Shown: positions 1,765-57,351 of the stretch, piece after piece | Position numbering within the stretch: position 1 is the stretch's first letter | Layout: each line of letters opens with the position of its first letter | DNA from: Branchiostoma floridae | Lineage: Eukaryota; Chordata; Leptocardii; Amphioxiformes; Branchiostomatidae | Direction of reading: 5' to 3' | NCBI RefSeq assembly: GCF_000003815.2 | Contig: NC_049979.1 | Span: forward strand, 27,204,470 to 27,268,469 | Length of the DNA: 64,000 nt | Program-made: the position numbers and the translations under genes | Notes under the pieces: model-generated | Databases searched by the model: none | The model's input: only the letters and a program-made list of their open reading frames with translations | Told to the model about the DNA's origin: nothing

Positions 1765-1943
1765 TCAGTCACCAATTTCTGTTTTAGATGCCCTGGTAGT
1801 ACTGTAGTGGTGCATACCAAACATTAAAGCTGCGCCTGCTAATTTGGAAGAAAAGGTTGTACATGTCTCCAGACCCAGGCTTCCCGTGGCTGAAGGCCGC
1901 CTTTTCCTCCGGAGTTCACCAAGCGCAATCACAGACGATGAAT
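1765..1943 (-). CDS. Gene 1 exon 10, C-terminal tail
   Basis: The acceptor (CATACAG) precedes AT, which completes an Asp codon with the last G of the previous exon. The exon encodes about 59 residues with a basic patch (LRRKRRPSA) and ends in TGA at 1765-1767. No domain is recognised. The same frame also stays open through the preceding intron, so intron retention would not stop translation before this exon. Confidence 0.7.
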
Positions 1944-4900
1944 CTGTATGCACCAACAGATCGAAAATGAAGATGACGACATGTATCATTCTCTTGTTAT
2001 CGTGAGAGGAAAGCACAATAATCACGCCATCATCCTGTTGATACAACTGTAACAATAATGTGTGCAACAAACAATGCCTACCTGTAATCGTTGCGTCGAT
2101 TTCTTTCATCAGTGCGAAGTCATCGTCGGTTGGAGTTTTCAACACTCTGTAGCCATGGGGGCTTGGACGTGTCAGCAGGAGATGTATGCAACAGGAACGG
2201 ACGTCTTTTGGATCAATGGTGACTTCAAGCTCGACTTTACTTGCGCCACAAGCACGAAGAACTTGCTCAGTCACAAGTAGCTTCTGGAAGTATTGACGCA
2301 CTTCTCCACGGCAATACATGTCCCAGACTTCTCTCAAACCACCAATGTCCTTGCAGCTGTACACGTAGATTATGCTTCCTTTCTCCACTGTCTTCCCTTT
2401 TAACCCCTGATTGCCAAAAGCTCCTTCCCAAAGAGCGTCTTGGGCGGCCTCTCTGTTGTGATGAGCGCCTGCCACATCCACTCGTACGCGAAGCTCGGGG
2501 TCAACTGCAAAAGAAAAAAAAGTACTACCGTAAGAACTAGAAAATTGAGTTCAATTACAGAAGACACACGATGTAAACAGTCAATCAAAGACGAACTGTT
2601 TGTGTGTATAATGACAGCCACAGTTCGACAACATTGTACAACCAAAGCTCTGCGAGTTCGTATGGACCTGTTTTAAAAAGAGGGAAGGCATGTAAACAAT
2701 AGATAAAGTGATATCAGATGTTTTGTTTATCCAATTGTTGACGTGCAACACTACATGTAATAGAACTTAGCCATTAGTGTCCCATGTAACACTATCGGAT
2801 TGCTGCATTTAACCCATGTGGGCAGGAACATGCAAATAGAGATCATGGTGCTTTTGTCTAATGTCTATATTATAAGCACGCCAATAGAAATTTGCCTTAC
2901 CCATGTCAGAGGGATCGCTCTGGTAGCCTTTACTGTTTCTTGCAGACACTCGGAATCGGTGGCCTTCGATGGGTCTGATTTGCTTGACTCTACACTGCTG
3001 CCCTGATACTTGGATGCACGTATCCCACACCTCCCATGGCCTACGGTAGGATTTCTCGACAATGTAGGAAGAGATGCGATAGCCGCCATTGTCTTCTGGT
3101 TTTAGCCATTCCAACGACACAGTGCCCTCGACCCTGTCGACATCTATGACGCGCAGGTTACGAGGCGTGCCAGGCTTTCCTATCAAAGAGTATGAATGAA
3201 TTAAGGGTTAATGACCCGCCCCGATGTGTATATGGTGTCATAACGCCTGGACCTTTGCTATAACCACCGAATAAAACCACCGATGTGAGCGAAGCGAACG
3301 AGGTGGTTTTATGAGGTGGTTATAGCAAAGGACCAGGCGTTATGACACCATATACACCGAGGAACAGGCGGGTCATTAACGTTATTATCATATAGCCTAC
3401 ACAAACTTGCAAACTCCTGTATGACGCATAGATCCCTTGGTACGAAACGTGTGAATTCCTTTGTCGAATTTCTGAAAATTCACATTTGCTCTTTGGTACA
3501 TGCATGTGTAAGGAGATTACAGATTGCATTTTGAAACCAAAATTTCCACAGAAAATATTCGAAACATTGCAGGCTTTTTAGAACAACAAAACTCATTATC
3601 AATGTTAGAAGGAGCCATTCCTCTTTGCAGTCTGTACTTATTCTCTCTGCTCTGGCATATGTTTCGCACCTTTTTAATTTTATTGGCCAATACCTGCATA
3701 TATCTTACTTTCTTGTGTGTGTATCGCTACTTTTGATTGGTCAAAATGAATCGACACCGGCACCGGTGTCAATTTGCATCGACACTGGTGTCGGTGTCAA
3801 TGCAAATCGACACCGGTGCCAGTGTGGTGCCAACCAACATGGAACGGGGCCTTCTGATTGGTCCGCGGCGCCTGGCTATATGATGATATAACATACGAGT
3901 TGAGATATTGATATCAAACACTACACCGTTGATAGTTTTACCTTAAAAACTCAGAAATATCAAATAAACTTTTAAAATCTGGCTTATGCACTTAAGATAT
4001 GTAAATATGTTTCATTCCCGACGGTAAACGCAGGGAATGCGTTTTCTTGAATACGTAAACGTATAAACTCACAAACGGTCTAACTCACAAGCAAGAAAAT
4101 CTGCAAACTGTACCTTGTGTTTTGGCGATTCCCCAAGCTGAGTACGCCGGTTCACTCTTTGCACCATTGCGATTAACAGTGCTTACACGGAAGTGGTACT
4201 GCTTATTCTTCGTTAGATGACCGACCTCGAATTCTCGTGTGTCGTTAGACAGGCAGTGTTGTTCATGCGCTATTGTCCAAACACGAGATCCGGCCACACT
4301 GTACTCTACCATGTAGCCCATCATGAGTCCATCTTCACAAGTAGCAGGTGGCGCCCACTTTATCTTTATCCAAGACTCGGTTGTTTTCACCACCTCGACA
4401 TCTTCAGGTGCATCCGGCTGACCTTAAGGATAAAGCCAACAACTTGTTGGAATACTTTTTGACCAGCCAGCTATACAACAATACTGTACCACAGTATTAG
4501 CCTCTACCAGGCTTCGTGGATCGGTGGTCTAATTGTAGAAATTGGTCAAATAGAGTCAATAGTACGCTAGAGGAGTCCAGTAAATACATTAACCGTCCCA
4601 CGAAGCCTTGTAGAGGCTACCACATTAACCGACCCACGAAGCCTTGTAGAGGCTACCCCAGTAGAGAGAATGGAGGTAAGTAGACGACATGCACAGTAGT
4701 TTAATAAAACAAAACAAAAATCAGAAAATAGGGAGACCTACCAGAGTATCTCAAATCACCGTCAGCACCTAGATTTGTGACAATAGAGATACATTTATCA
4801 TTATCACGCCAACAGCTAGCCAGTATTTGTCAAACGATTGAAAGTATCTATCAAATAATCAAAAGCAATACCATTTTATAGCATATAACAACTGGGGGGT

Positions 4901-7900
4901 ACTTAAAAAGGGCCGGTTTACGGAGGCAAAAAATGGCTTGCCCTAGAAATGTCCTACGATGTTTGACACGCGCGTGAACTAGGACACATTTTTAGGACAA
5001 GTCATGTTTTGTCTAGGCCTTGTGCAAACCGGGCCTTATTCTCCGTCACAGTCTTCGAACGGGGCTGGTTTTTATTTTGGAGTGGAGCGTTGGTTCGCGA
5101 TTTTCAACGTTGGCTAGGTCCTCTTGAGCCGGGAAAGACAGTTTGCTGTGGAAGACAGTTTTCTGTGGAAGGAAGCTTGCCGTGGAAGGGAGTTCGGGAC
5201 GGGGCGAAGCTACTATCACCTTCCACGTCAAACTCCATTCCACAGCAAACGGTCTTCCTCGGTAAACTCTCTTTTCCGGCTCAGGAGAACCCAGTCAACG
5301 TTAAAAACGGCCCCACCCCCAGAAAACAGTTCCGTTCGAAGACTGCAACGGATAACCTTGATACGTGTATAACTTGATATATATCCTCATTCATGATTTT
5401 CTCACAATTGATTGATAATTACCAAACATGGGAGTTCATTCTTGTTCATTTAGTCACCAAGATCAACATTTATGCAATAATTGTAAAATACACCGTATAT
5501 GGCAGGTTTCTACAACATTGGACAATGTACAAACAATCCACAATACTACAATACAAACATTCTACACCTCTGTTGATATATAATTAAAACGCTACGCTAC
5601 CTGAAGAACATTAGTGGAAACCTTAAAATTTATGTTACGACTATAAGTGCTTATCATGCTCATGGCTACCTTACCTTCTATCTGTTCTGCGACGTGTACA
5701 CAGTTACATTCTCGAATAGCCTTGCACAACATCTCCAGAGTTGCGTCCTTGCCATTCGCACCGCGCCACTGCTCGAGCATTGCTCTGCAACACTTTGCCG
5801 GATCTTCTCTGTGTTTGAGTCTTATCCCCTGGATGTAGTTATACGCCAGGTCCAATCTATTTCCCAGCTCTTCCCATTTGTAGTGCATCTTCTCCTCGAC
5901 GGTCTTAAACGCCTTCTGTAGGTCTACAATGAAAAAAAAACACGGTTGAGCCAAACATGTTAGATAACAGCTCTGCTTTTAATATGTTTTGAAATTGCTA
6001 AAAATATTTAACAAATATCTGTTGTGAAGTTTTTACGTACCGCTAGTTTTTGTTCTTTTGCTGACAGTAGTTTGCTCATTAGTAGTTGCCCTTGCCCGCT
6101 TGCCTGGATTGCAATAGAAACAAATGTTAGTGAAACATATGATTCCTCATGTGCTGTTTAATAGTGGACATTAATCATAATCTTTTAACGAATTATGACG
6201 CTTTATCCCACTAGTGATGGAATCGCATGACATACTGGATAAGTTTCTCCACACAAATCAAACTTGTCTCTAATTTGAAAAGTAATATAGGTATCACATA
6301 GCCGGGTTACCCGGTAGCATACCCTGTTGTAACCGCTGGCTCAATCTTTTTGCTTGCTAAGGTTGCTTTACAAATATTGAATTTCTCGGAATGTGAGGGT
6401 AATTCTAACATTGTGGCCCCTGTGGCAGTATGTAGGCTGGCTTTGTGACACACTTTCCTTTCTTGTGTCATTTCTATTATGCCCGCGCATTCCATACATT
6501 GGTTAAAAAGATTCCGACAACAAAATAAGCAACATTTATTGATCTCATTTATTGATTTTTTTTAGGAACGTTTTGTGTTACATTGTCCGCGTGCAAGAGG
6601 TCATGGGAGGTTCATTATTATAGATTAATTCATCGTCGATCGCACGAGCCTCGCTTATATGTGAGGGGGACAGTCTTGGGGCGAAAAATACGTAAGACCA
6701 TCTTAAGATCTTAAAATCAGCCGATCTTCCTGCGATCGCGAAGTACGTCCGAAGATCGTATATAATGTGAGGGGGTATTCCCAAACCCCAGCCCGATCTC
6801 AAATTATATTTTTAGGTTGGGGTATGGTATCCAGGCTAAAAAGTATCTACCGTGTGGGGATCCAACTCTTGCAAATTGGGGTTGGGGGTAGCGCTGTTGT
6901 AAATTTTCTTAGGGGTGATAATTAAAAAAATAACGGGCATGTTGGCATCAGGACATGGAAACAGTCTGGCATCCTGGCCATTACAATGTAGGACGGTAAC
7001 CAGGATACATATCATGAGCTTCTAAATCTCAGTCTTACACAGCTTGATCGTGGCATGGACGAAAATAACGTTACCACATTTTGCTTATCTTGCCACAACA
7101 CAAATATAAGTGAAAAGTACCTTTCGTCTGTGCAGTATGTCTTTCTGGGCTTTCTGTAGGCGACTGGCGTAGCCGCCTCTGGTCAGCTGAACGTAAATCC
7201 ATCCGCGAGTTTCGTCCAGGTCCAGCCATGATTCATCCCAACTGTCAACAAAGGGCACAAAGTTCTTTGTGTCAAATTTGAAAAGACACTGATAATTAAG
7301 AGAGTTTAATCAACTTTAATTCTGACAATTCATTAAACAAAATGCCGCTTGGGGACTCCAACTACATCACTTAAGTTTACTCTCTGCCCCAAGACGCAAG
7401 AGCTATTTAGCTTACAATTCTCCCACGACAATAGCTAGTCCAGAACAAGAGATGTCAAAACCAGAAATTGACCCGCAGTTCCCTTGAAGGTCGCCAGGAG
7501 GCCCATTCTTGAAATTGACCTTCGTTTTCTTGACCTCTACCCACATGTCATACAGCTTATCTACAGTGAACCCTCGCACGTAACGCAAATGAAGTGTTTC
7601 TTACTTCCGGGTACCAGTACAGCCAGTGTGAGAGGTCACTGAGAGAAAAAAAAGAGGTAGGCACGTGACCTGCGCAAAGTATTCACCACGATCGATAATT
7701 GACCCAGGGTTATCGCACAGCAGGCAAAGTAAATCTATTTGTCTAGCAAAGTACAAAGTATAAGCCGTATAAGATTATAACAGATGTTAGAGTTATTATG
7801 GATGGAAGAAAGTTCACTGTGTACAAATACACCAAAGACACCATTTGCATAATCTGTGAGAAATTTTTATATTTCCGTAGTGATAATTGATTGGAATTTC

Positions 7901-10900
7901 ATACTTGAGGGATAACTAAAGGTTAACATAATTAGACATAGTGGAAAAAACTAAACTTTACGTAACCAACACCAAGTTAGATTGGGACTTACCCCAAATT
8001 TTCAGCCGACTCCGTCAGCCTTGTTCACGGAATGGACCCGTCTGCTGTCACGGCTGAAAATTTGGTGTAAGTCCCAATCTTACTTGGTGTTGGTTACGTA
8101 AACTTTAGGTTTTTCCACAATGCCATTTACCAACACATATGAACTTTCATGCTAAGATAATTAGACATGAATCAAGCAAATCAGGGTACATAAAACACGT
8201 GTGTGCAATAGCCTAACTTTAAGCAATTTGCTTTACTTGGGTAGTGAAGATGATCAACTGAGGCAATTAATTTAAGCATGCAAATGAGGACCTTATATGC
8301 ACGACGAATGAGAAATTTTTAGGATACTCGAAAATGTTGATATCATTTGGGAAGGTACGAGGTCGTGGAACTCGAGTTTGTACTACTGCAGTTTAGAAAA
8401 TGAAACTTTGTAACATTAAAAGAGAGTTTAGTTGACTTTATTGGTGACAGTTGATAATTCAAAAGCTTCGATGTTTTCTAAATCATATATAGACATGTTA
8501 CATACATATTTAGTACGTTTCATGATGTGATACTTACATGTATAAGCTGTCTTATTCTAGCTTGAAATTGTGTGTTTGTAAAGTCTTGATGTCTGTTTGT
8601 TGATGCTTTTTCTGTTGTTTCTGTAGCTGTGTGTGTAAACCTGATGTTGTATTTGTGAACGTGCCAAGAGCTGATGTTTCATGTACTGATGTTTCATGTA
8701 CTTGTAAGAAATGTGATATGCATGAGATGAGATGAGAGATAATGAGATGAGAGCTTTATTTGGTTTTCGCAATTTAAAAAAAAACTAAAATTTCAAACCA
8801 AATTACATAGTGGACGTACGTTTACCCAAAACGTTTCATCATAAAAGTTTCATCATAAAAAATTCATCTAAAAAAGATCTAAAATAGACTTACATATTAT
8901 ACAAGAGCGTTTCAGTCTGACAAAAAACAAACAGACACTTGTAACTGAATGAATGTCTACAGAGTCTTGTTTTATAAGGATGTCATCTGGTATAGAAATG
9001 ATGCATGATCATGGTGTTCTGTTTATCTAAAAAATTTACTTGCATTTGATATTCTTGTACTTGTGATTCCTCTGATGTTCTTGTATTTGTGAATCTTTGA
9101 AATTTGTTGTATATGGGAATGTTCTTGTACATTTATAATACGTGAAAAACGCTTAGTCTAGTGTGTAAAATTTATAACCACAGGACAACCCTGCACAGAA
9201 ACTCAGGTATGACACCAGGCTTCACAGAAGTCCTAGGGAAGAAATCCTAGCACGTACCCAAAAGTCCAGGTGGTGTGTGTGTGGTGTAAGTTGTAACAAT
9301 ATGTAAATGTGCTATACTTCATGAACTTAGTAATACATATGTCTAGATGAATAAGTAAAGGTAGGGTAGTGTTTACAGTGGTAAATTAGGACTAGTTGCC
9401 TGGTAGATATTATGAAATTGTTTTATCTACTTGTATGCATGTCGTTATATAAATTTAGTAATGCATGTGTCGGAGTGAATAAGCAAGCCTTAGCAATGGT
9501 TAGGAAGAACCATAATTTGTATACATTTTGCATCAGAAGCTTTCTACAAGTTCCATATGCTATAGACGTTTGTAACTCATAGATATATCATACATATTTT
9601 TTACCAAGTATCTCAAATATTGAAAATCATCGACCCACAATGATTAACATATCCCTTTAGAAACGACTCAACGGGCCTTTATCGTTGTACGTTCTTGTAC
9701 GTGTTGTACGAATCGCAAATCAGCCTTTTATTTTGTGGCTGTCTTTGTATGAACTTACACTGAGCACAGCAATTTGTTTCAGCCCGATCGATGCGCATGC
9801 AGAGTAGCATCTGGACCTTTCTCATGATGTGAAGCATGCGCGATGTGGTACTACTGTAAGCTCTTTGATGCTTAAGCTTGTGTGTTTGTGAAATGTTGAT
9901 GTCTTAGTGATGTCCTTTCTCAAAGTCCAGATGTGACAGAATTCTGACAGAATTCACATCTGGACCAGACGTGACAGAACCTCTCTCGAAGATGGAAGAC
10001 GAGGTTAATAACGCAAACAGACAGAACTTATTTTAGCCCCAAATCACACACACATTTTCACAATATAAGATCAAATAATAAATATCATAACTAGTGTTAT
10101 GCACTGAAAGATGTAGCAATTCAGTAGACTGATCCCGTAGTCCCTTAAGAGATAAATAAAAACATAATAATGCACATATTTGACGGACATGCAGCAATTC
10201 TCTTATTGGTAGATTTTTTAAATTTTCTCATTTCCTTGCTATCGTTGGTTGAATTGCTAATTATGATGGACAGTCTTTTGTTTGCCTCATTGAACTCGTT
10301 TTAGATCTATCATGCCCGCCGCATGAGAAAGATGAATTGCAGAAGCTGAAAACCCAATGTCAATATCACTAAACCAGTCATGTCTATCTCACCGAGAATG
10401 CTTTGTTTTCAGTCATTATCCATTGATGACAAAGTTTTGGTGTACAGTGCTAATATCATTCGGTTAAAATCAAGTTATGAGGTCGTGGAACTCCCGTTGT
10501 GCAGTAGTTTGTACTTAGGAAGTGCATTTTAGTTATAGCATTAATATATCATAGATAGTTTATCATGATGTGATACTTGCGCGATGTGGTAGATACCCAG
10601 TCACCGAGAGGGTTTTGAAATAATATTTGTAATAAGATTGAACTATTCTAAGGCAAAGAATATTTCAGTCACTGAAGTTCTAAATTGTTCAAACAATTGA
10701 AAATGAAAAATTGAACATGTTTGAACCTATCTATATATGTTGGAAACATTGGGAAATTAATGGTACAAATATCTCTTTATTTAGAACAATTTAGAAACAT
10801 CTATGTCTTTTTGTTATTGTTGGAACATGTGATCATATGTTCCAACAATTTGTGTCATTTTTTGTTCTCCATAAAAACTTTTATTACCCCAATAAACAAA

Positions 10901-12891
10901 GCTGCTAAGTTGGGCCTTTTGTTTGGGTCTTGTATTTTTAGATTTTCTTTAGTAGACACTAGTGGCTCTTTTGTGAAAAGCTGTCAGACAGACACAATTT
11001 CCTGTACTTGGCAGGGATGTGTGAATTGCCCTCTTCCCAGCCCACTGACCCAGTTTCATCATTTTGTTTCCATGTTCCAACATATGATCACATGTGATCA
11101 CAAAAGATGAATCTATGTTGGAACAGTTTAGAAACTAACAGAAATAATGGATTTGATGTTAGAAACGTTTCTAACATTATGAACACTATAGAAAACATTT
11201 AGAACATCACACAGATGTTATAAATAGTTCTAAACAGTTACTTATCACATTTAGAATGTTATAAAGATTTTCAAAATGTTGGAACAAAAGGCAAGAAAGA
11301 CCCTCTTGGTAATGTGGAATCGACTCTACTAGTGTAAGCTCTTTGATGCTTAAGCTTATGTGCTTGTGAAATGTTGATGTCTTAATAGCTTAGTGATGTC
11401 TTTTTTCTGCTGTTTCTGTTCCTGTGTGTGTAAACATGTATTTGTAAACATACCAAGAGCTGATGTTGTCTCCACTTGTAAACGTGCTATATGTGATGGT
11501 TTATCTAAAACTCCTTTTTACTTACATTTAATATGCTTATATTTGTGATTCCTCTGGCGTGTTTGTTTTTACATTTGTAGCCAAAGCCATGGATAACACA
11601 TCTGCACTGATCATGAAGTCCTAGGGAAGAAACCCTTACAGGCACATAACAATAGGAGGACAAAGCATCGCTGTAAAAAAAGTCCTAGGGAGCAAAGCCT
11701 AGCCAAAAATGCCAGTGGAATGGCCCTTGTAACAGTATGTAAATGTGTTATACTTTATTAATTTAGTAATACATGTGCCTTGTATGAGTAATTCTGGAGG
11801 TATGGTAGTGGTAAGAAAGGACTAGTGCAGATATCCTGAAATGGTTTCATCTATTTGTATACATGCCGTTATATTGTGATGCATGTGACGGGGTAAATAA
11901 GTCAATGTGTGCAATGGTTTGGAAGTATCATTGTAAATAGCTTCCTATGTTTGTAACTCATTGTGTACATTATGCATATTTTTTACCAAGTATATGAAAT
12001 ATTGAAACATTGATCCACAATGCTTAACCAACCTGTCGTACAACAACCAATAAAAACAGCCTTGTACTTTATGGCTGTGCTTATATGCACTCGCACTGAG
12101 CACAGCAGCTTGTTTTAGCCCGCGAGACTGATTTATAAGTTGTACACCTCTGGATGATTGCAGAAGTGAACCCAAAGTCAATATTACTGTACCAGTCATG
12201 CCTATCTCACCACGAATGCTTTCTTTTCAGTCATTATCTATTGATGACAAAGCTTTGGTGTACAGCGCTAAACGATGATAATGTCAATGTTATCCTTAAG
12301 TACGATGCCTTCTCTCACACGGCGACAAAAAAATGAACGTTTTACTTCCTTCAAAACATGCCAGCTTTAGGACACAGATCAATTCAAACTTGACTATACT
12401 GTACCACTAGTGCCGTTGCCACTATTGGGTTAGGATTCTAATTCTTACTCAAAGATGAGGCTTCTTACCTTGTACGATCACGACATCTATGGACCTGTCC
12501 CAGCAAAAAAAGCTGTTGGTTTTTAACACTTCCCTTGTGTTGACCTGTATTCGACGCAGCGGAAGGGGTGCGTACCATGTAGGAGGGTCTGCATGCGTTC
12601 TATGCGTATTGCCTCATCTGTCGCCTTAATTCTACGTAGTTCATAGCCGGTCAAAATTTTAACTCAAGTTACGTGTAAAGTACTTTTGGTGCATTTTGAG
12701 TAATTGGCTCCTGAATTCTACGGTATACCCACCTTACTTAGTTGGATAGGCAGATAGGGAGGGAATCGGGACCCCCCATGCAGACCCCAAGGAAGGTGAC
12801 CACGTGATGGGAAGTCTGTCTAACCAAGGGTCTAACTGAAATAGACCTCAACTTGCTCGTTGGCACGTTCAAACACAGCTTGAGCTGCCAT
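1765..12891 (-). CDS. Death domain / double FN3 / TRADD-N-like adaptor protein (gene 1, ten exons)
   Basis: Exons, in transcript order, are 12837-12891, 12469-12588, 7416-7560, 7121-7241, 6041-6098, 5675-5923, 4114-4422, 2901-3179, 2082-2504 and 1765-1943. They sum to 1938 bases (645 aa plus stop), and every junction keeps frame. The start is the ATG at 12891 in an ACCATGG context. Layout: aa 1-147 unrecognised, about 140-166 basic linker (HRRKRARA, NLS-like), 167-249 Death domain, 250-352 and 353-445 fibronectin III, 446-586 an alpha/beta module resembling the TRADD N-terminal domain, 587-645 basic tail. There is no signal peptide or membrane span, so it should be intracellular. Death and TRADD-N domains mediate assembly in TNF-receptor and NF-kB signalling; that role here is inferred from family. 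Most domain exons are flanked by phase-1 introns. The first donor (GTTAGA) is non-ideal, and the 6041-6098 acceptor was chosen because only it keeps frame. Confidence 0.82.
2082..2504 (-). CDS. Gene 1 exon 9, TRADD-N-like domain
   Basis: The acceptor TTTTGCAG leads into codons for DPELRVRVDVAG, and the donor CAG/GTAGGC leaves phase 1. The core reads GSIIYVYSCKDIGGLREVWD, then a helix ending near VTEQVLRACG, then a strand (KVELEVTID) and Cys-Cys. This order (hydrophobic strand with Cys, helix with Arg-Gly, helix, LEL-type strand, acidic helix with Cys) resembles the N-terminal TRAF2-binding domain of TRADD. The match rests on remembered pattern only and could be another alpha/beta adaptor fold. 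Confidence 0.75.
2901..3179 (-). CDS. Gene 1 exon 8, second fibronectin III domain
   Basis: One exon holds one complete FN3 domain of about 93 residues. It begins GKPGTPRNLRVIDVD, has the core Trp in SLEWLKPEDNGG, the YIVEK strand, and the C-terminal FRVSARNSKG with the tyrosine-corner-type motif. The style is titin-like (I-band or A-band FN3). Both flanking introns are phase 1. Confidence 0.88.
3208..3379. mobile_element. Hairpin MITE, 172 bp
   Basis: A nearly perfect inverted repeat with ends TTAATGACCCGCC and GGCGGGTCATTAA. Arms of about 75 bp surround a small loop containing GAGCGAAGCGAA. It lies in intron 7 of gene 1. A decayed relative with the same loop and GTATATGGT arm sequence lies at about 37765-37925. 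Confidence 0.85.
3752..3836. repeat. Short cluster of CGACACCGGTGTC palindromes
   Basis: Three copies of a CGACACYGGTGYC-type motif, each close to self-complementary, alternate with a TTTGCAT-type spacer. The block as a whole can fold into several alternative stems. Intronic; origin unknown. Confidence 0.7.
4114..4422 (-). CDS. Gene 1 exon 7, first fibronectin III domain
   Basis: A complete FN3 domain in one phase 1-1 exon. QPDAPEDVEVVKTTES opens the A and B strands, IKIKWAPP carries the core Trp, MGYMVEYSV is the C strand, and YHFRVSTVNRNGAKSEP is the F-G region. Donor AAG/GTACAG and acceptor CCTTAAG/GT fit. Confidence 0.88.
4499..4655. mobile_element. Small inverted-repeat element with a doubled right end
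   Basis: The left end AGCCTCTACCAGGCTTCGTG is matched in inverse by CACGAAGCCTTGTAGAGGCT near 4602-4621. That right end is then repeated in tandem about 36 bases further on. It is a MITE-like remnant in an intron of gene 1. Confidence 0.75.
5043..5351. mobile_element. Long inverted-repeat MITE, about 309 bp
   Basis: CCGTCACAGTCTTCGAACGG at the left mirrors CCGTTCGAAGACTGCAACGG at the right. Internal parts also mirror (CAACGTTGGCTAGGTCC against its diverged complement near 5290, and a TTTGCTGTGGAAGAC motif near 5142). It is a whole-element palindrome inside the gene 1 intron between the Death and FN3 exons. Confidence 0.8.
5675..5923 (-). CDS. Gene 1 exon 6, Death domain
   Basis: A clear Death-superfamily fold of about 83 residues. 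The WEELGNRLDLAYNYIQGI stretch covers helices 1-2, CCRAMLEQWRG helix 4-5, and DATLEMLCKAIRE followed by VAEQIEG helices 5-6. The conserved Trp, Leu-Gly, Trp-Arg and Leu positions are all present. Acceptor TTGTAG follows a strong T tract and the donor is GAAG/GTAAGG. Death domains pair homotypically in apoptosis and NF-kB complexes. Confidence 0.9.
6041..6098 (-). CDS. Gene 1 exon 5, short basic linker
   Basis: A 58-base exon that, with the preceding codons, makes HRRKRARATTNEQTTVSKRT, rich in Arg and Lys and resembling a bipartite nuclear localisation signal. A competing acceptor five bases upstream (6103) would break the frame of the whole transcript, so GCAAG/CGG is preferred. The donor is GCG/GTACGT. 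Confidence 0.6.
7121..7241 (-). CDS. Gene 1 exon 4, N-terminal region
   Basis: Encodes WDESWLDLDETRGWIYVQLT followed by a helix-prone stretch (YASRLQKAQKDILHRRK). The donor AAAG/GTACTT is phase 0 and the acceptor TTGACAG leaves one base to complete a Phe codon. No family is recognised. Confidence 0.75.
7416..7560 (-). CDS. Gene 1 exon 3, N-terminal region
   Basis: Starts after CACTGTAG with AT, completing Asp with the upstream G, and ends at the good donor GAATT/GTAAGC. It encodes DKLYDMWVEVKKTKVNF and a Gly/Cys-rich beta-like stretch with GFDISCSGLAIVVGE. It reads as a beta-rich domain of unknown family, shared with exons 2 and 4. Confidence 0.75.
7941..8118. mobile_element. Hairpin MITE, 178 bp
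   Basis: Near-perfect arms of about 67 bases (TTTACGTAACCAACACCAAG against its complement, then GATTGGGACTTACCCCAAAT against its complement) flank a spacer of about 44 bases. It lies in intron 2 of gene 1. Confidence 0.88.
8340..12290. repeat. Old tandem duplication filling gene 1 intron 2
   Basis: Similar blocks recur in the same order: GAGGTCGTGGAACTC (8350, 10481), AAGCTCTTTGATGCTTAAGC (9855, 11336), AGTCCTAGGGAAGAAA (9229, 11618), TTTTTTACCAAGTAT (about 9598, 11978), and a block with ATTGATGACAAAG (10425, 12240). The copies have diverged by substitutions and small indels, so the duplication is not recent. The alternative is a family of long non-coding repeats; no protein frame is shared between copies. 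Confidence 0.7.
10590..11315. mobile_element. Palindrome-rich insertion nested in the duplicated block
   Basis: The intron copies are interrupted here by AT-rich sequence bounded by CCGAGAGGGT on the left and ACCCTCTTGG on the right, an imperfect terminal inverted repeat. Inside are many TTGGAACA/TGTTCCAA and TTTAGAAC-type motifs. One is a 34-bp near-palindrome around 10818-10851 with a GATC centre; another is the perfect 18-bp palindrome GTTAGAAACGTTTCTAAC at 11158-11175. It is probably a non-autonomous DNA transposon. Confidence 0.5.
12469..12588 (-). CDS. Gene 1 exon 2, N-terminal region
   Basis: A phase 1-1 exon encoding PPTWYAPLPLRRIQVNTREV and ending CWDRSIDVVIVQ before donor ACAAG/GTAAGA. 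It joins exon 3 to read VIVQDKLYDMWVEV without a frame break across an intron of almost 5 kb. Alternating hydrophobic residues suggest beta strands. Confidence 0.75.
12837..12891 (-). CDS. Gene 1 exon 1, start codon
   Basis: ATG sits in ACCATGGCA, a strong Kozak context. The exon encodes MAAQAVFERANEQVEVYF and reaches a weak donor (CA/GTTAGA) in phase 1, as exon 2 requires. An ATG 20 bases upstream is in another frame and would not reach exon 2 in frame. The weak donor is the main reason for caution. Confidence 0.65.
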
Positions 12892-31539: not shown

Positions 31540-41504
<9,965 letters not shown>

Positions 41505-42689: not shown

Positions 42690-44800
42690 GGATAAAATCG
42701 TGCGCGAGAGAGATAAAACCGTGGAGAGAGAGGAAATATCGTGCGAGAGAGAAAATAAAACCAGAGAGAGAGGAAATATCGTGCGAGAGAGAAAATAAAG
42801 TGCGAGAGAGGAAATAAAGTTGACAGGGAGGAAATAAACTGCGAGAGAGGAAATAAAACTATAAAGATAGGAAATAAAGGGGGAGAGATAGGAAATAACG
42901 TGCGAGAGAGGAAATAACCCTATAGAGATAGGAAATCCCGTGCGGGAGAGGAAATAAAGGTGGAGGGATAGGAAATACCGTGCGAGAGAGAAAATAAAGG
43001 TGGAGATATAGGAAATACCGTGCGGAAGAGAAATTGAACCATAGGGATAAAAAAATATCGTGCGGGAGAGGAAATAAAGATGGAGAGATAGGAAATACCG
43101 TGCGGGAGAGGAAATAAAGGTGGAGAGATAGGAAATACCGTGCGGGGGGGGGGGGGATAATTAAAACCATATATAGATAGGAAATATCGTGCGGGAGAGG
43201 AAATAAAACCATAGAGATAGAAAATACCGTGCGAGAGAGAAAATAAAGGTGGAAAGATAGGAAGTACCGTGCGGGATAGAAAATAAAGGTGGAAAGATAG
43301 GAAATACCGTGCCTGAGAGGAAATAAAGCTGGAGAGATAGGAAATATCGTGCGGGAGAGGAAATAAAACCATAGAGATAGGAAATACCATGCGAGAGAGA
43401 AAATAAAGGTGGAAAGATAGGAAATACCGTGCGGGAGAGAAAATAAAGGTGGAGAGATAGGAAATATCGTGCGGGAGAGGAAATAAAGCTGGAGGGATAG
43501 GAAATATCGTGCGGGAGAGGAAATAAAACCATCGAGATAGGAAATATCGTGCGGGAGAGGAAATAAAGGTGGAGAGATAGGAAATACCGTGCGGGAGAGA
43601 AAATAAAGGTGGAGAGATAGGAAATACCGTGCGGGAGAGGAAATAAAGCTGGAGGGATAGGAAATATCGTGCGGGAGAGGAAATAAAACCAAAGAGATAG
43701 AAAATATTGTGCGGGAGAGAAAATAAAGGTGGAGAGATAGGAAATACCGTGCGAGAGGGAAAAAATGTGGAGAGATAGAAAATACCGTGCGGAACAGAAA
43801 ATAAAACCATAGAGATAGAAAATATCGTGCGGGAGAGGAAATAAAGGTGGAGGGATAGGAAATACCGTGCGAGAGACAAAATAAAGGTGGAAAGATAGGA
43901 AATACCGCGCGGGAGAGGAAATAAAGGTGGAAAGATAGGAAATACCGTGCGGGAGAGGAAATAAAGCTGGAGAGATAGGAAATACCGTGCGAGAGGGAAA
44001 AAATGTGGAGAGATAGGAAATACCGTGCGGAACAGAAAATAAAACCATAGAGATAGAAAATATCGTGCGGGAGAGGAAATAAAGGTGGAGGGATAGGAAA
44101 TACCGTGCGAGAGACAAAATAAAGGTGGAAAGATAGGAAATACCGCGCTGGAGAGGAAATAAAGGTGGATAGAGAGGAAACATCGTGCGGCAGAGGAATA
44201 AAGGGGGAGAGATAGGAAATACCGTGCGGGAGAGGAAATAAAACCATAGTGATAATAAATACCGTGCGAGAGAGAAAATAAAGGTGGAGTGATAGGAATT
44301 CGTGCGGGATGGGAACTAAAGTTGGAGAGATAGGAAATACCGTGATGGAGGGGAAATAAAACCATAGAGAGAGGAAATACCATGCGGGAGAGGAAATAAA
44401 ACCATAGAGATAGGAAATAACGTGCGGGAGAAAAAATAAAACCATAGAGAGAGGAAATACCGTGCGGGAGAGGAAATAAAACCATAGAGATAGTAAATAC
44501 CGTGCGGGAGAGGAAATAAAACCATAGAGATAGGAAATATCGTGCGGGAGAGGAAATAAAACCATAGAGATAGGAAATACCGTACGAGAGAGAAAATAAA
44601 GGTGGAGAGATAGGAAATACCGTGCGGGAGAGAAAATAAAGGTGGAGGGATAGGAAATATCGTGCGGGAGAGGAAATAAAACTGGGGAAGAGGAAATATC
44701 CTACGAGGACGGAAATAGAAGTATAAAACGAGGAATTGTCTTTGCGAAAGAGGAAATACAAGGCTGGAAAGAGGAAATATTCCACAAGAAAGAAAATAAA
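42690..44800 (+). repeat. 40-bp satellite, block A (about 50 units)
   Basis: The unit is GGAAATAAAGGTGGAGAGAT plus AGGAAATACCGTGCGGGAGA, two diverged 20-bp halves that both start GGAAATA. The 12-base word after GAAATA switches among AAGGTGGAGAGA, AAACCATAGAGA and AAGCTGGAGAGA types between units, while the CCGTGCGGGAGA half is nearly constant. Left of 42850 the units degrade to about 20-bp GCGAGAGAGGAAATA steps. The minus strand has frames of 621, 568 and 340 codons because the unit lacks stops on that strand; they are not genes. Confidence 0.95.
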
Positions 44801-45048
44801 GGGCTAAGTTAAAAGTATAATGAATGCTTCTTCGTCCTCACAGTCCGAGGTTCGGCCGCTTTACTTTTTACCGTACTATACAATGTTGTACATAACGCTT
44901 AATGCCGCGACACACGCAAACAACGGTTTCCATCTATCTCGCGATCTTGCTGTTTTGATTTCGAGAACTACTTTTTATCTGTTGCAATAGTTTTTTTCGC
45001 TTACGTTTAGATGAGATTTATATATTCTCTTTCCGAAAGTCAGGAATC

Positions 45049-48350: not shown

Positions 48351-48734
48351 TGCGATTTTCTTCCTCCCGTGGTGATTTCGTCTCTCGCGCTTGCATGCGG
48401 TTTTTTTCCTCGCTCGCAGATTCTGTCTTTTTCGCCGAGAGAGAGAAAAAAAAATCGCAGCCACACGCGAAAGAAGACAACGACGCCAAAAGGGATCGAT
48501 GGATGCGAACTGGCGAGAAAAACGATTTACACCAAATACCGAGGGACAGGAAACAAATAAGATATACAATACGAGTGTGAGGTCTATCTTTCTTCTGAGT
48601 TCTTGATTTCGGTAAAGCGATTCCTCGCGCTTGCATGCGTTTTTTTTCCTATCCCGCGCTCATAGACTTGCTGCGAGAGAGAACAAATCCTGGGCGGGGG
48701 GAAATAAACGCCAGGGGGATAGGAATGATAATCC

Positions 48735-50450
48735 GGCACGTGCGTGAGAGAAAATAAAACCATAGAGATAGGAAATATCGTGCGGGAATGGAAACAAAGG
48801 TAAAGAGATAGGAAATATCGTTTGGCAGAGAAAATAAAGGTGGAAAGATAGGAAATATCGTGCGGGAGAGGAAATAAAGTTGGAGAGGTAGGAAATATCG
48901 TGCGGGAGAGGAAATAAAGGTGGAGAGATAGGATATAACGTGCGGGAGAGGAAATAGAACCATAGAGATAGGAAATACCGTGTGAGTGAGAAAATAAAGA
49001 TGGAGAGCCTAGGAGATAACGTGCGGGAGAGGAAATAAAGGTGGAGGGATAGGAAATATCGTGCGGGATGGGAAATAAAGTTGGAGGGATAGGAAATATC
49101 GTGCGGGAGAGGAAATAAAACCATCGAGATAGGAAATATCGTGTGAGAGAGGAAATAAAGTTGGAGAGATAGGAAATATCGTGCGGGAGAGGAAATAAAG
49201 GTGGAGGGATAGGAAATATCGTGCGGGAGAGGAAATAAAGCTGGAGAGATAGGAAATACCGTGCGGGAGAGGAAATAAAACCATCGAGATAGGAAATATC
49301 GTGTGAGAGAGGAAATAAAGTTGGAGAGATAGGAAATATCGTGCGGGAGAGGAAATAAAGGTGGAGGGATAGGAAATATCGTGCGGGAGAGGAAATAAAA
49401 CCATTGAGATAGGAAATATCGTGCGGGAGAGGAAATAAAAGGTGGAGAAATAGGAAATACCGTGCGGGAGAGGAAATAAAGGTGGACAGATAGGAAATAC
49501 CGTGCGGGGGGTGAAATGAAACCATGGAGATAGTAAATATCGTGCGGGAGAGGAAATAAAGGTGGAGAGAGAGAAAATACCGTGCGAGGGAGAAAATAAA
49601 ACCATACAGATACTCAGATAGGAAATACCGTGCGGGAGGGGAAATAAAGGTGGAGAGATAGGAAATAACGTGCGGGGGAGGAAATAAAACCATAGAGATA
49701 GTAAATACCGTGCGGGAGAGGAAATAAAACCATAGAGATAGTAAATACCGTGCGGGAGAGGAAATAAAACCATAGAGATAGTAAATACCGTGCGGGAGAG
49801 GAAATAAAGGCGGAGAAACAAGAATAGCGTGCGGGAGAGAAAATAAAGGTGGAGATATAGGAAAAACCGTGCGGGAGAGGAAATAAAACCATAGGGATAA
49901 GAAATACCGTGCGGGAGCGAGGGGAAATATAGGTGAAGAGATAGGAAATAACGTGCGGGAGGGGAAATAAAGGTGGAGATAGATGAAATACCATGCGGGA
50001 TGGGAAATAAAGGTGGAGATAGAGGAAATACCGTGCGGGAGGGAAAATAAAACTATAGAGATAGGAAATACCGTGCGGGAGGGGAAATGAAGGTGGAGAG
50101 ATAGGAAATACCGTGCGGGAGGGAAAATAAAACCATAGAGATAGGAAATACCGTGCGGGAGGGGAAATAAAGGTAAAGAGATAGGAAATGCCTTGCGAGA
50201 CAGTTAATAAAGACGGAGAGATAGGAAATATCGTGCGGGAGAGGAAATAAAGGTGGAGAGATAGAAAATGTCGTGCGGGAGAGAAAATAAAGGTGGAGAG
50301 ATAGGAAATATCGTGCGAGAGAGGAAATAAAACCATAGAGATAGGAAATAACGTGTGAGAGAGTAAATAAAACCATAGAGATGGGAAATAACGTGTGAGA
50401 GAGGAAATAAAGGTGGAGAGAGATGAAATATTGTGCGTGAGAGGAAATAT
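48735..50450 (+). repeat. 40-bp satellite, block B (about 43 units)
   Basis: Same unit and orientation as block A, with the same alternation of AAGGTGGAGAGA, AAACCATAGAGA, AAGTTGGAGAGA and AAGCTGGAGAGA words. Short multi-unit patterns repeat (for example near 49090-49270 and 49270-49390), a sign of local higher-order duplication. Confidence 0.95.
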
Positions 50451-50559
50451 CCTGCGAGAGAGGAAATAAATGCGGCGAGAAGAAATAAAGTTTGGGCGAG
50501 AGGAAATATCTTATGCGAAAAGAAATAAAGTTTTGGGGAAAGGCATTATCTTACACGAG

Positions 50560-53389: not shown

Positions 53390-53668
53390 TCAAGACTTCT
53401 TCTGTATACTGAGTAAAAAGGAAAAAAAGTTATCCGATACGTTTTCCGCGAGCTCCGATGGTGCTAAAACACCCAAAACGCACATAGAACGCATGATCTG
53501 GGTAATCAGGCGACGAAACGCTTTACCGCTATCGCGCGCACTAATACCCGGAAGTGTTCGCCGCACGATCAAATCTCCGACACCATAAAACGCTACGAAT
53601 AACAAGCATTTGGAGAAGTATAAAAGATTATACACTTCTAAAGCGATAGCCGAAAAATCTAGAGCCAA
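53390..53668 (-). CDS. Hypothetical 92-codon frame inside X (three identical copies)
   Basis: Repeated at 55187-55465 and 56986-57264. It includes a hydrophobic stretch (LLYFSKCLLFVAFYGVGDLI) and a second one (MRSMCVLGVLA). The frame extends about 12 codons upstream without a stop, but no ATG opens it except internal ones. Identity among copies reflects recent duplication, not selection. It could be part of a transposon protein or chance. Confidence 0.2.
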   Translation of the reverse strand: MALDFSAIALEVYNLLYFSKCLLFVAFYGVGDLIVRRTLPGISARDSGKAFRRLITQIMRSMCVLGVLAPSELAENVSDNFFSFLLSIQKKS

Positions 53669-54093
53669 AACTATGGAGACAACCTCTGATTTGCGTCTTA
53701 TTCTTAGGGACTATTTAGATATCTGGACACTTGAAATTCCGAACCGGAACCTTAAGAGGAATATTTTCTTCTCATTATACATTTTTATTACTTAAAAAGT
53801 TCATATCTACCATATATCCAAATTTGGTTTGTCTGCGATGGTTACTTTTCCCACAGGAGCGGTTTAAAGTCAAGTCAAAAACACTGTGTTTTGAGGCTGT
53901 CAGGCCTAGATGCATATTGGAATTACGTCATAATGGAGAAACATTAAAAAACTTGCCTTTTTCTGACATCGCTTTTCTGAAAACGGATAAAATGGGGTGC
54001 AAAGTCTGCCCATGAACTTGTCCGGGAGGGTATGTGCACTCTACGTCGTTTCGGTGCTGCACATCGGCAGAAAACCGTCTTTAAAAGTTGTCA

Positions 54094-54122
54094 CCGCTGA
54101 CGTCACGGAGTGACGTCAGCGG
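54094..54122. promoter_or_regulatory. CRE palindrome in S segment
   Basis: A perfect 13-bp inverted pair CCGCTGACGTCAC / GTGACGTCAGCGG with a three-base loop, repeated at 55891-55919. It holds two TGACGTCA sites, the consensus for CREB/ATF-type bZIP factors. The same GTGACGTCAGCGG word occurs in the host duplication at 48314 and 52982. Confidence 0.6.
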
Positions 54123-54842
54123 TTGCTCAAGGAAAACAGCAGGGGGGCGCGTTTTAAGTTCGTCGCTTGTAAGTATAATGAAGAATGTGCCAGATTTTGA
54201 CATGGAGCGGCAGACCAGATCTCACACTTTCAGAATCAAACGCGTCCGACACCAAACTCTTGGCTAATTCGCCGTGGACGGCCCCTTAAGAAGCACAATG
54301 CTCCTCAAATGTGTGCAAGAATGCATTCTTACACAGTGCAAAGCACAAACTGGATCTTATTGTCGGCGCTAGAAGCGGGCAGTTTGAATAAGCGCGGCAG
54401 AGATGTGTAGTACTTTTAGCAGGCTACTACTACATACCACCGAAAGAAAAAAAGATTGCCGCGTTAAGGAGCTATGAACCGAAAGTCAGTAAACCCAGTT
54501 TCGCCTTAAGTAAGGGCTTAAAGCACCAAGATTTCAGCTTTAATACCCATTTAAGTCATACTAATGAACGGCATCGCGAACATATGCGATAGGTGAACGA
54601 CAAAGGTCGGCCCCAATCAAATGACATAGAGAATGATATGATTTTGGAAAATTCTGCCCGCCAGAAACGTTTAAAGTTGCCCGTAATAGTAGTTCGAAGG
54701 GGGGGGGGGGGGTGAAAAGGGGGAGGGGGGCGCCAATAGCCTGTACATGAATATGCTGACTTTTTAACTACAAAAATGCAAAACGGTGGTTTTTTTTACA
54801 TAATATCACGACATCTGATGACAACATTACAATGCGTCGAAA

Positions 54843-54868
54843 TTACGTCATCTATGACGTCATATAAG
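54843..54868 (+). promoter_or_regulatory. Double CRE with TATA-like box at the S-X junction
   Basis: TTACGTCA and TGACGTCA are spaced by four bases and directly followed by TATAAG. They lie about 25 bases before the next X. Repeated at 56642-56667. It resembles a compact pol II promoter reading into X. Confidence 0.45.
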
Positions 54869-57351
54869 GTACAAGCGGCGCCCTATTAAGGTTCCGGTTC
54901 GGAGTTTTTTTTAGGATTTGCGGCCGATTTGACTGTCTCTGAGAAAAGCACTAGCGCTACTCAAAACATTGTTTTTCGGATAATTCAATGTTTCCGATGG
55001 AAAAGGGTGTGTTGTCGCTGACCGACAGACTCATTTGACATTTTCTGTAGAAATGTTGTTTTTGGTAAAAACCATCAAAAATATATGCTTTTCATCCAAA
55101 AATTGCTAATTTGGGGCCATTTTTTACAGGCCGCTACACGGAAAAAATGAATTTTCCTGGGATAATGACTGATATGGCAATGAAGGTCAAGACTTCTTCT
55201 GTATACTGAGTAAAAAGGAAAAAAAGTTATCCGATACGTTTTCCGCGAGCTCCGATGGTGCTAAAACACCCAAAACGCACATAGAACGCATGATCTGGGT
55301 AATCAGGCGACGAAACGCTTTACCGCTATCGCGCGCACTAATACCCGGAAGTGTTCGCCGCACGATCAAATCTCCGACACCATAAAACGCTACGAATAAC
55401 AAGCATTTGGAGAAGTATAAAAGATTATACACTTCTAAAGCGATAGCCGAAAAATCTAGAGCCAAAACTATGGAGACAACCTCTGATTTGCGTCTTATTC
55501 TTAGGGACTATTTAGATATCTGGACACTTGAAATTCCGAACCGGAACCTTAAGAGGAATATTTTCTTCTCATTATACATTTTTATTACTTAAAAAGTTCA
55601 TATCTACCATATATCCAAATTTGGTTTGTCTGCGATGGTTACTTTTCCCACAGGAGCGGTTTAAAGTCAAGTCAAAAACACTGTGTTTTGAGGCTGTCAG
55701 GCCTAGATGCATATTGGAATTACGTCATAATGGAGAAACATTAAAAAACTTGCTTTTTTCTGACATCGCTTTTCTGAAAACGGATAAAATGGGGTGCAAA
55801 GTCTGCCCATGAACTTGTCCGGGAGGGTATGTGCACTCTACGTCGTTTCGGTGCTGCACATCGGCAGAAAACCGTCTTTAAAAGTTGTCACCGCTGACGT
55901 CACGGAGTGACGTCAGCGGTTGCTCAAGGAAAACAGCAGGGGGGCGCGTTTTAAGTTCGTCGCTTGTAAGTATAATGAAGAATGTGCCAGATTTTGACAT
56001 GGAGCGGCAGACCAGATCTCACACTTTCAGAATCAAACGCGTCCGACACCAAACTCTTGGCTAATTCGCCGTGGACGGCCCCTTAAGAAGCACAATGCTC
56101 CTCAAATGTGTGCAAGAATGCATTCTTACACAGTGCAAAGCACAAACTGGATCTTATTGTCGGCGCTAGAAGCGGGCAGTTTGAATAAGCGCGGCAGAGA
56201 TGTGTAGTACTTTTAGCAGGCTACTACTACATACCACCGAAAGAAAAAAAGATTGCCGCGTTAAGGAGCTATGAACCGAAAGTCAGTAAACCCAGTTTCG
56301 CCTTAAGTAAGGGCTTAAAGCACCAAGATTTCAGCTTTAATACCCATTTAAGTCATACTAATGAACGGCATCGCGAACATATGCGATAGGTGAACGACAA
56401 AGGTCGGCCCCAATCAAATGACATAGAGAATGATATGATTTTGGAAAATTCTGCCCGCCAGAAACGTTTAAAGTTGCCCGTAATAGTAGTTCGAAGGGGG
56501 GGGGGGGGGGGTGAAAAAGGGGAGGGGGGCCCCAATAGCCCGGACATGAATATGCTGACTTTTTAACTACAAAAATGCAAAACGGTGGTTTTTTTTACAT
56601 AATATCACGACATCTGATGACAACATTACAATGCGTCGAAATTACGTCATCTATGACGTCATATAAGGTACAAGCGGCGCCCTATTAAGGTTCCGGTTCG
56701 GAGTTTTTTTTAGGATTTGCGGCCGATTTGACTGTCTCTGAGAAAAGCACTAGCGCTACTCAAAACATTGTTTTTCGGATAATTCAATGTTTCCGATGGA
56801 AAAGGGTGTGTTGTCGCTGACCGACAGACTCATTTGACATTTTCTGTAGAAATGTTGTTTTTGGTAAAAACCATCAAAAATATATGCTTTTCATCCAAAA
56901 ATTGCTAATTTGGGGCCATTTTTTACAGGCCGCTACACGGAAAAAATGAATTTTCCTGGGATAATGACTGATATGGCAATGAAGGTCAAGACTTCTTCTG
57001 TATACTGAGTAAAAAGGAAAAAAAGTTATCCGATACGTTTTCCGCGAGCTCCGATGGTGCTAAAACACCCAAAACGCACATAGAACGCATGATCTGGGTA
57101 ATCAGGCGACGAAACGCTTTACCGCTATCGCGCGCACTAATACCCGGAAGTGTTCGCCGCACGATCAAATCTCCGACACCATAAAACGCTACGAATAACA
57201 AGCATTTGGAGAAGTATAAAAGATTATACACTTCTAAAGCGATAGCCGAAAAATCTAGAGCCAAAACTATGGAGACAACCTCTGATTTGCGTCTTATTCT
57301 TAGGGACTATTTAGATATCTGGACACTTGAAATTCCGAACCGGAACCTTAA

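Follow-up and report, generated by a model that had tools for sequence, protein, structure and literature searches.

The 64,000-nucleotide stretch of Branchiostoma floridae contig NC_049979.1 considered here (positions 27,204,470 to 27,268,469; hereafter the window, G000:C1:27204470-27268469) carries near its beginning, on the minus strand, a gene whose exons encode a Death domain, two titin-type FN3 domains and a C-terminal module resembling the N-terminal domain of TRADD (TRADD-N). Seven exons with AG/GT borders, which were picked by the analyst from the genomic sequence, are joined exclusively by phase 1 junctions and give 486 codons without a stop. The proposed first coding exon (7121..7229) opens with an ATG at 7229, with an in-frame TGA just 5′ of it, and appears to encode a basic, probably disordered N-terminus; it is followed by a predicted basic linker exon of 63 nt (6041..6103, phase 1-1, KRAR...KRTK), the Death exon (5675..5923, phase 1-1) and a putative linker micro-exon of 27 nt (4742..4768, phase 1-1), which may be optional as the frame is kept if it is skipped. 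The FN3-A exon (4114..4422), the FN3-B exon (2901..3179) and the TRADD-N-like exon (2082..2504), which contains a Gly-Ser motif and stops at a phase-1 donor at 2082, complete the chain. In the protein the Death domain starts near amino acid 59 and the TRADD-N-like module near amino acid 347.

The Death exon scored 48.9 bits (E 7.1e-13) against Pfam PF00531 (cut-off 22.6), and FN3-A and FN3-B scored 49.8 and 30.9 bits (E 4e-13 and 3.1e-7) against PF00041 (cut-off 25), all three being above their cut-offs. An earlier note on this DNA, made from the sequence alone, had proposed a Death domain and two FN3 domains in one gene, and these scores, together with exons in register, bear this out. The same note described ten exons in perfect register between 12891 and 1765; the in-frame register holds, but only seven exons were found and the original list could not be reproduced, with coding starting at 7229 and the last exon found ending at 2082, so that a gene end at 1765 was rejected. 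For the exon at 7.2 kb, the frame that opens at the ATG of 7229 is the sole one in register with the exons after it, and this, together with the TGA just before that ATG, makes coding sequence further 5′ unlikely. An open reading frame (ORF) near 7.5 kb has matches in five other stretches that were fetched, in one of them antisense to the gene, and is apparently a dispersed repeat; the exons that the note placed 5′ of 7229 were rejected on these frame and repeat arguments.

A search of the genome (513 Mb, 431 contigs) with the last exon of the window gene returned 22 matches at E<=1, of which 18 entered the alignment, without L025, L028 and two matches that were not fetched. Two FN3 exons lie directly upstream of TRADD-N at eight loci, these being the triads identified with the upstream regions checked for only part of the remaining matches: the window (C1), C18a at 4.897 Mb (4.89M), C18b at 16.209 Mb, C18c at 7.129 Mb, C18d at 7.089 Mb, C3 at 1.65 Mb, C5 at 27.66 Mb and C11 at 9.37 Mb. 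The FN3 domains of the relatives were recognised with a local profile, and five of them were also given to Pfam: FN3-A of C18c (35.7 bits) and of C3 (26.0) exceeded the cut-off of 25, and FN3-A of C18b (22.5), FN3-B of C18d (23.7) and FN3-B of C18b (13.3) fell under it. FN3-A of C18d lacks its beginning. Phase 1 fitted both ends of the Death exons (3/3) and of FN3-B (8/8), the starts of all eight TRADD-N exons, and their ends at the seven readable loci (C11 is masked); as irregularities, the TRADD-N donor is GC at C5, and at C18d its GT opens into an in-frame TAA.

The phase-1 donor at 2082 leads one to expect a further 3′ exon in the window gene. At C18b, C5, C18d and C18c (loci L011, L015, L014 and L012) a conserved short exon of the type LGLSEDYPVYCKP...LDFLD follows TRADD-N and is possibly a tyrosine-based docking motif. 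An exon like this LGLSEDYPVY tail was not found in 8.1 kb 3′ of the window gene, including 6 kb beyond the window, nor in 1.5 kb downstream of each of C18a and C3.

The eight loci are related in a way that suggests common descent of the whole triad. C1 and C18a were paired in the trees of FN3-A, FN3-B and TRADD-N with support of 0.99, 0.91 and 0.88, as were C18b and C5 (0.92, 0.99 and 0.91). The placement of C3, C11 and C18d conflicts, the TRADD-N and FN3-B trees joining C3 with C11 and the FN3-A tree joining C3 with C18d, and the support for this group is only 0.21 in the TRADD-N tree. Judged from these sequences, a triad of FN3-FN3-TRADD-N that was assembled once and then duplicated as a block fits the pattern. 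An all-versus-all comparison of short ORFs between the loci yielded noise.

The closest solved FN3-FN3 structure to the window pair is titin 3lpw (3.5e-20 across both domains). When the genome was searched with the window pair (listing threshold E<=1e-6, with the best 150 of 170 candidates scored), all 19 matches listed after the pair itself and C18a fell at C18:17.09-17.19 Mb, one titin-like locus from which one sampled FN3 pair proved titin-like (8bnq, 8.6e-53); the FN3 domains of the six more distant triads were absent among the matches listed. Four of the eight triads share contig C18 with this locus. In a tree to which one titin pair of the genome was added, the eight FN3-A domains formed a clade (0.963), as did the eight FN3-B domains (0.935), with titin outside both; this speaks for the family and for a single acquisition of the FN3 pair. 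In a concatenated FN3-pair tree the titin pair attached beside C1 and C18a on a long branch. Capture of the pair from titin is a reasonable inference from these matches, with the alternative that the likeness to titin merely reflects the fact that titin is the largest FN3 array. The titin-like, intracellular type of FN3 fits a cytosolic protein.

The last exon of the window gene has no significant Pfam match, the match of its module to EAP30 (E 0.09) being taken as chance, and the identification of the C-terminal module, which the earlier note had likened to TRADD-N, draws on its predicted structure and on its relatives. The solved TRADD-N structure 1f3v was the top structural match of the predicted fold, which has an RRM-like two-layer alpha+beta arrangement like that of 1F3V; in the fold list (VIA) it stood 2.0 Z units above the first unrelated row, the other TRADD-N entry being second, though tied. 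For the model of a second family member, with a pLDDT of only 72, 1f3v again came first, by 2.3 units. G42-S43 of the window module lies immediately before the strand at 44-49 and corresponds to the tiny residue and Ser (sometimes Cys) in the beta2-beta3 turn of the TRADD-N superfamily, though the model shows no strand at beta2. Across the 18 aligned members the Gly is present in 18 and the Ser in 17, with Cys in the remaining one. Nine of the 18 match PF20694 (TRADD-like_N), all below the cut-off of 23.7 bits (best 3.2e-4; eight at 16.0-20.9 bits, and one, a member of the FN3 type, at E 0.048); the window exon gave no match to this model. Direct sequence comparison was negative: alignment of the module with human TRADD alone by hhalign gave no signal, and local alignment to TRADD gave p 0.77 for the window module and 0.12-0.83 across all 18 members. 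A profile search of the PDB with the 18-member alignment produced three chance matches (eIF2B delta, best E 1.4). A different ferredoxin- or RRM-like domain is nevertheless unlikely, given the lead of 1f3v in both models, the PF20694 matches of half the family, albeit below the cut-off, and the Gly-Ser motif retained across it. On the predicted structures, then, the module is TRADD-N-like, as had been supposed.

A Death domain lies upstream on the same strand at three triads, the window (7.1e-13), C18a (3.9e-13) and C5 (1.8e-14). The Death-domain repertoire of the genome is large (588 candidates, the best 150 of them scored), as would suit a lancelet. When the window Death was itself used to search the genome (best 150 of 278 candidates scored), the Death domain of the C18a triad came out as its best non-self match (E 2.3e-15, with 3.9e-11 for the runner-up); Death was thus inherited together with FN3-FN3-TRADD-N in the closest relative. 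The Death domain of C5 is distant from that of the window (1.6e-5) and so has possibly been replaced, as at C18c (C18:7.13 Mb; L033 and L034 joined, 2952-2254, minus strand), where a CARD (1.5e-12) and FN3-A (1e-8) occupy one uninterrupted ORF, the CARD taking the place of Death, and are followed by FN3 and TRADD-N. Being a single ORF, this linkage is free of any splicing assumption. No Death or CARD was found upstream at C18b, C3, C18d and C11 in the fetched stretches, using the local Death profile and one CARD sequence.

These observations bear on the possibility that a gene with only the Death domain and a neighbouring gene for FN3-FN3-TRADD-N have been misjoined. The splice chain was predicted from genomic DNA, half of the triads lack a detected Death-fold, and annotation errors are suspected behind many of the domain fusions predicted in lancelets (PMC6071037). 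Against this stand the Death domain of the nearest triad relative, which tops the non-self matches of the window Death and lies in identical order, strand and phase, and the presence of CARD and FN3 within one unbroken ORF at C18c. We therefore consider a misjoin quite improbable; recurrence across relatives answers the suspicion of annotation error in this case, and the domain order that the earlier note reported is real rather than a chance join, as the same order recurs at other loci.

The ratio of nonsynonymous to synonymous rates (dN/dS) between the window and C18a was 0.12 (Death, in which dS is saturated), 0.30, 0.25 and 0.40 over the four domain exons, all of which are under purifying constraint. 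A degenerate, non-functional copy, to which one might be led by the conserved last exon not found near the window gene and by Death being over-represented more than any other domain in the dispensable genes of two lancelet species (PMC12373286), is very unlikely given 486 stop-free codons, canonical splice borders and dN/dS well under 1.

Several further features were observed around these loci. Upstream of the adaptor gene and on its strand (20183-17041, minus), ORFs resemble a NERD nuclease (9.1e-6) and a UvrD/AAA_19 helicase (1.3e-6), with a Schlafen-group-3 helicase match (1.4e-4) below the cut-off. Elsewhere in the window are two long low-complexity arrays (42859-44803 and 48584-50550, minus) of a ARYFLSLWFYFLSRT-like short motif, open in several frames, a 106-amino-acid ORF present three times at ~1.8 kb spacing (53390-57306), constituting a tandem triplication, and ORFs that we take to be C2H2 zinc-finger-like (CxxC...HxxxH; 38312-39494, plus). 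At L043/L044 (C19:8.16-8.18 Mb) a cluster of three Death exons is followed later by a TRADD-N exon, and several ORFs between them resemble SEFIR and DED modules. Near two triads (L031/L032 and L033/L034) there is a second TRADD-N-like ORF with weak profile matches (E 0.003 and 0.11), and long ORFs there appear to us to resemble GT4 glycosyltransferases, as one at C18b appears TIR-like. A GT4-TRADD-N combination has been described by Kaur et al. (2021; PMC8195603).

Taken together, the architecture and the family make it likely that a single lancelet gene encodes Death, a titin-type FN3 pair and a TRADD-N-like module. Its product is probably a signalling adaptor in the cytosol that belongs to the TRADD-N superfamily as expanded in invertebrates, and with its relatives it appears to form a small family of adaptors in immunity or cell death. 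A receptor or danger trigger would cause clustering through Death or CARD, the Death domain joining Death-domain assemblies of the FADD or TNFR1 kind; the FN3 pair, whether sharing ancestry with titin or taken from it, might serve as a stiff spacer, tether or docking surface, and the TRADD-N sheet with its conserved serine would dock a MATH-type partner such as TRAF, so that clustering would recruit a TRAF-like ubiquitin ligase. This TRAF-recruiting mechanism is put forward tentatively, the predicted MATH-domain binding through the TRADD-N sheet being inferred from 1F3V as described in the same source (PMC8195603). More speculative, and very doubtful, is the idea that a captured titin FN3 pair has been kept as a bait or strain gauge, in the manner of an integrated decoy; if so, the pair would detect when the giant muscle protein is attacked or damaged, or would detect a pathogen factor that binds such FN3 domains, and the adaptor would fire TRAF or cell-death signalling through a Death or CARD output, the two being exchangeable. 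With this family the TRADD-N immune expansions of marine invertebrates gain a layout that is multi-copy and constrained, in which Death and CARD alternate on a constant FN3-FN3-TRADD-N core and a titin-like source is indicated for the middle part; it also provides a lancelet domain fusion supported by relatives, beyond a gene predictor alone.

The earlier note had read the protein, if the C-terminal match held, as a rearranged TRADD-like adaptor. A rearranged TRADD is not supported, as the TRADD clade proper is confined to vertebrates (PMC8195603) and no direct sequence similarity to human TRADD was detectable; the order Death before TRADD-N is moreover ordinary for invertebrates, a Death-superfamily domain N-terminal to TRADD-N being found in DEDD2 and in most of the expansions described there. 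A lineage-specific cell-death or immune component, as also suggested, stays plausible, since that source documents large lancelet-specific TRADD-N expansions with a constant Death-like and TRADD-N part and variable partners, naming the lancelet layouts DED-TRADD-N-WD40 and GT4-TRADD-N-LRR. What sets the protein apart is the FN3 pair between Death and TRADD-N. No account of Death/CARD-FN3-FN3-TRADD-N was found among the papers listed in searches of open-licence PMC literature, the supplementary tables of PMC8195603, which could list such a layout, being outside this scope. Vertebrate TRADD shares the predicted TRADD-N fold and a Death domain in one protein, but has TRADD-N first and Death last, the reverse of the order here, and the FN3 pair is extra. 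With DEDD2/FLAME-3, likened here by description (PMC8195603), the protein shares a Death-fold first and TRADD-N next, but the former is a DED there and Death here, and no FN3 is named for DEDD2. The invertebrate DEDD2-clade and NCOA6-clade expansions share an N-terminal Death-superfamily domain, lancelet expansion, exchanged partners and the Gly-Ser motif (PMC8195603), and differ in that neither 'FN3' nor 'fibronectin' appears anywhere in the main text of that paper. The closest solved Death domains are those of FADD (1fad, 8.6e-6) and TNFR1 (1ich, 0.001). FADD combines DED with Death, and is not known to have FN3 or TRADD-N. Lastly, titin A-band FN3 pairs are the closest solved FN3-FN3 and, after C18a, the closest among the genome matches listed, but the lancelet family has only two FN3 domains, fused to Death or CARD and TRADD-N, and in the tree with one titin pair these fall into clades of their own.

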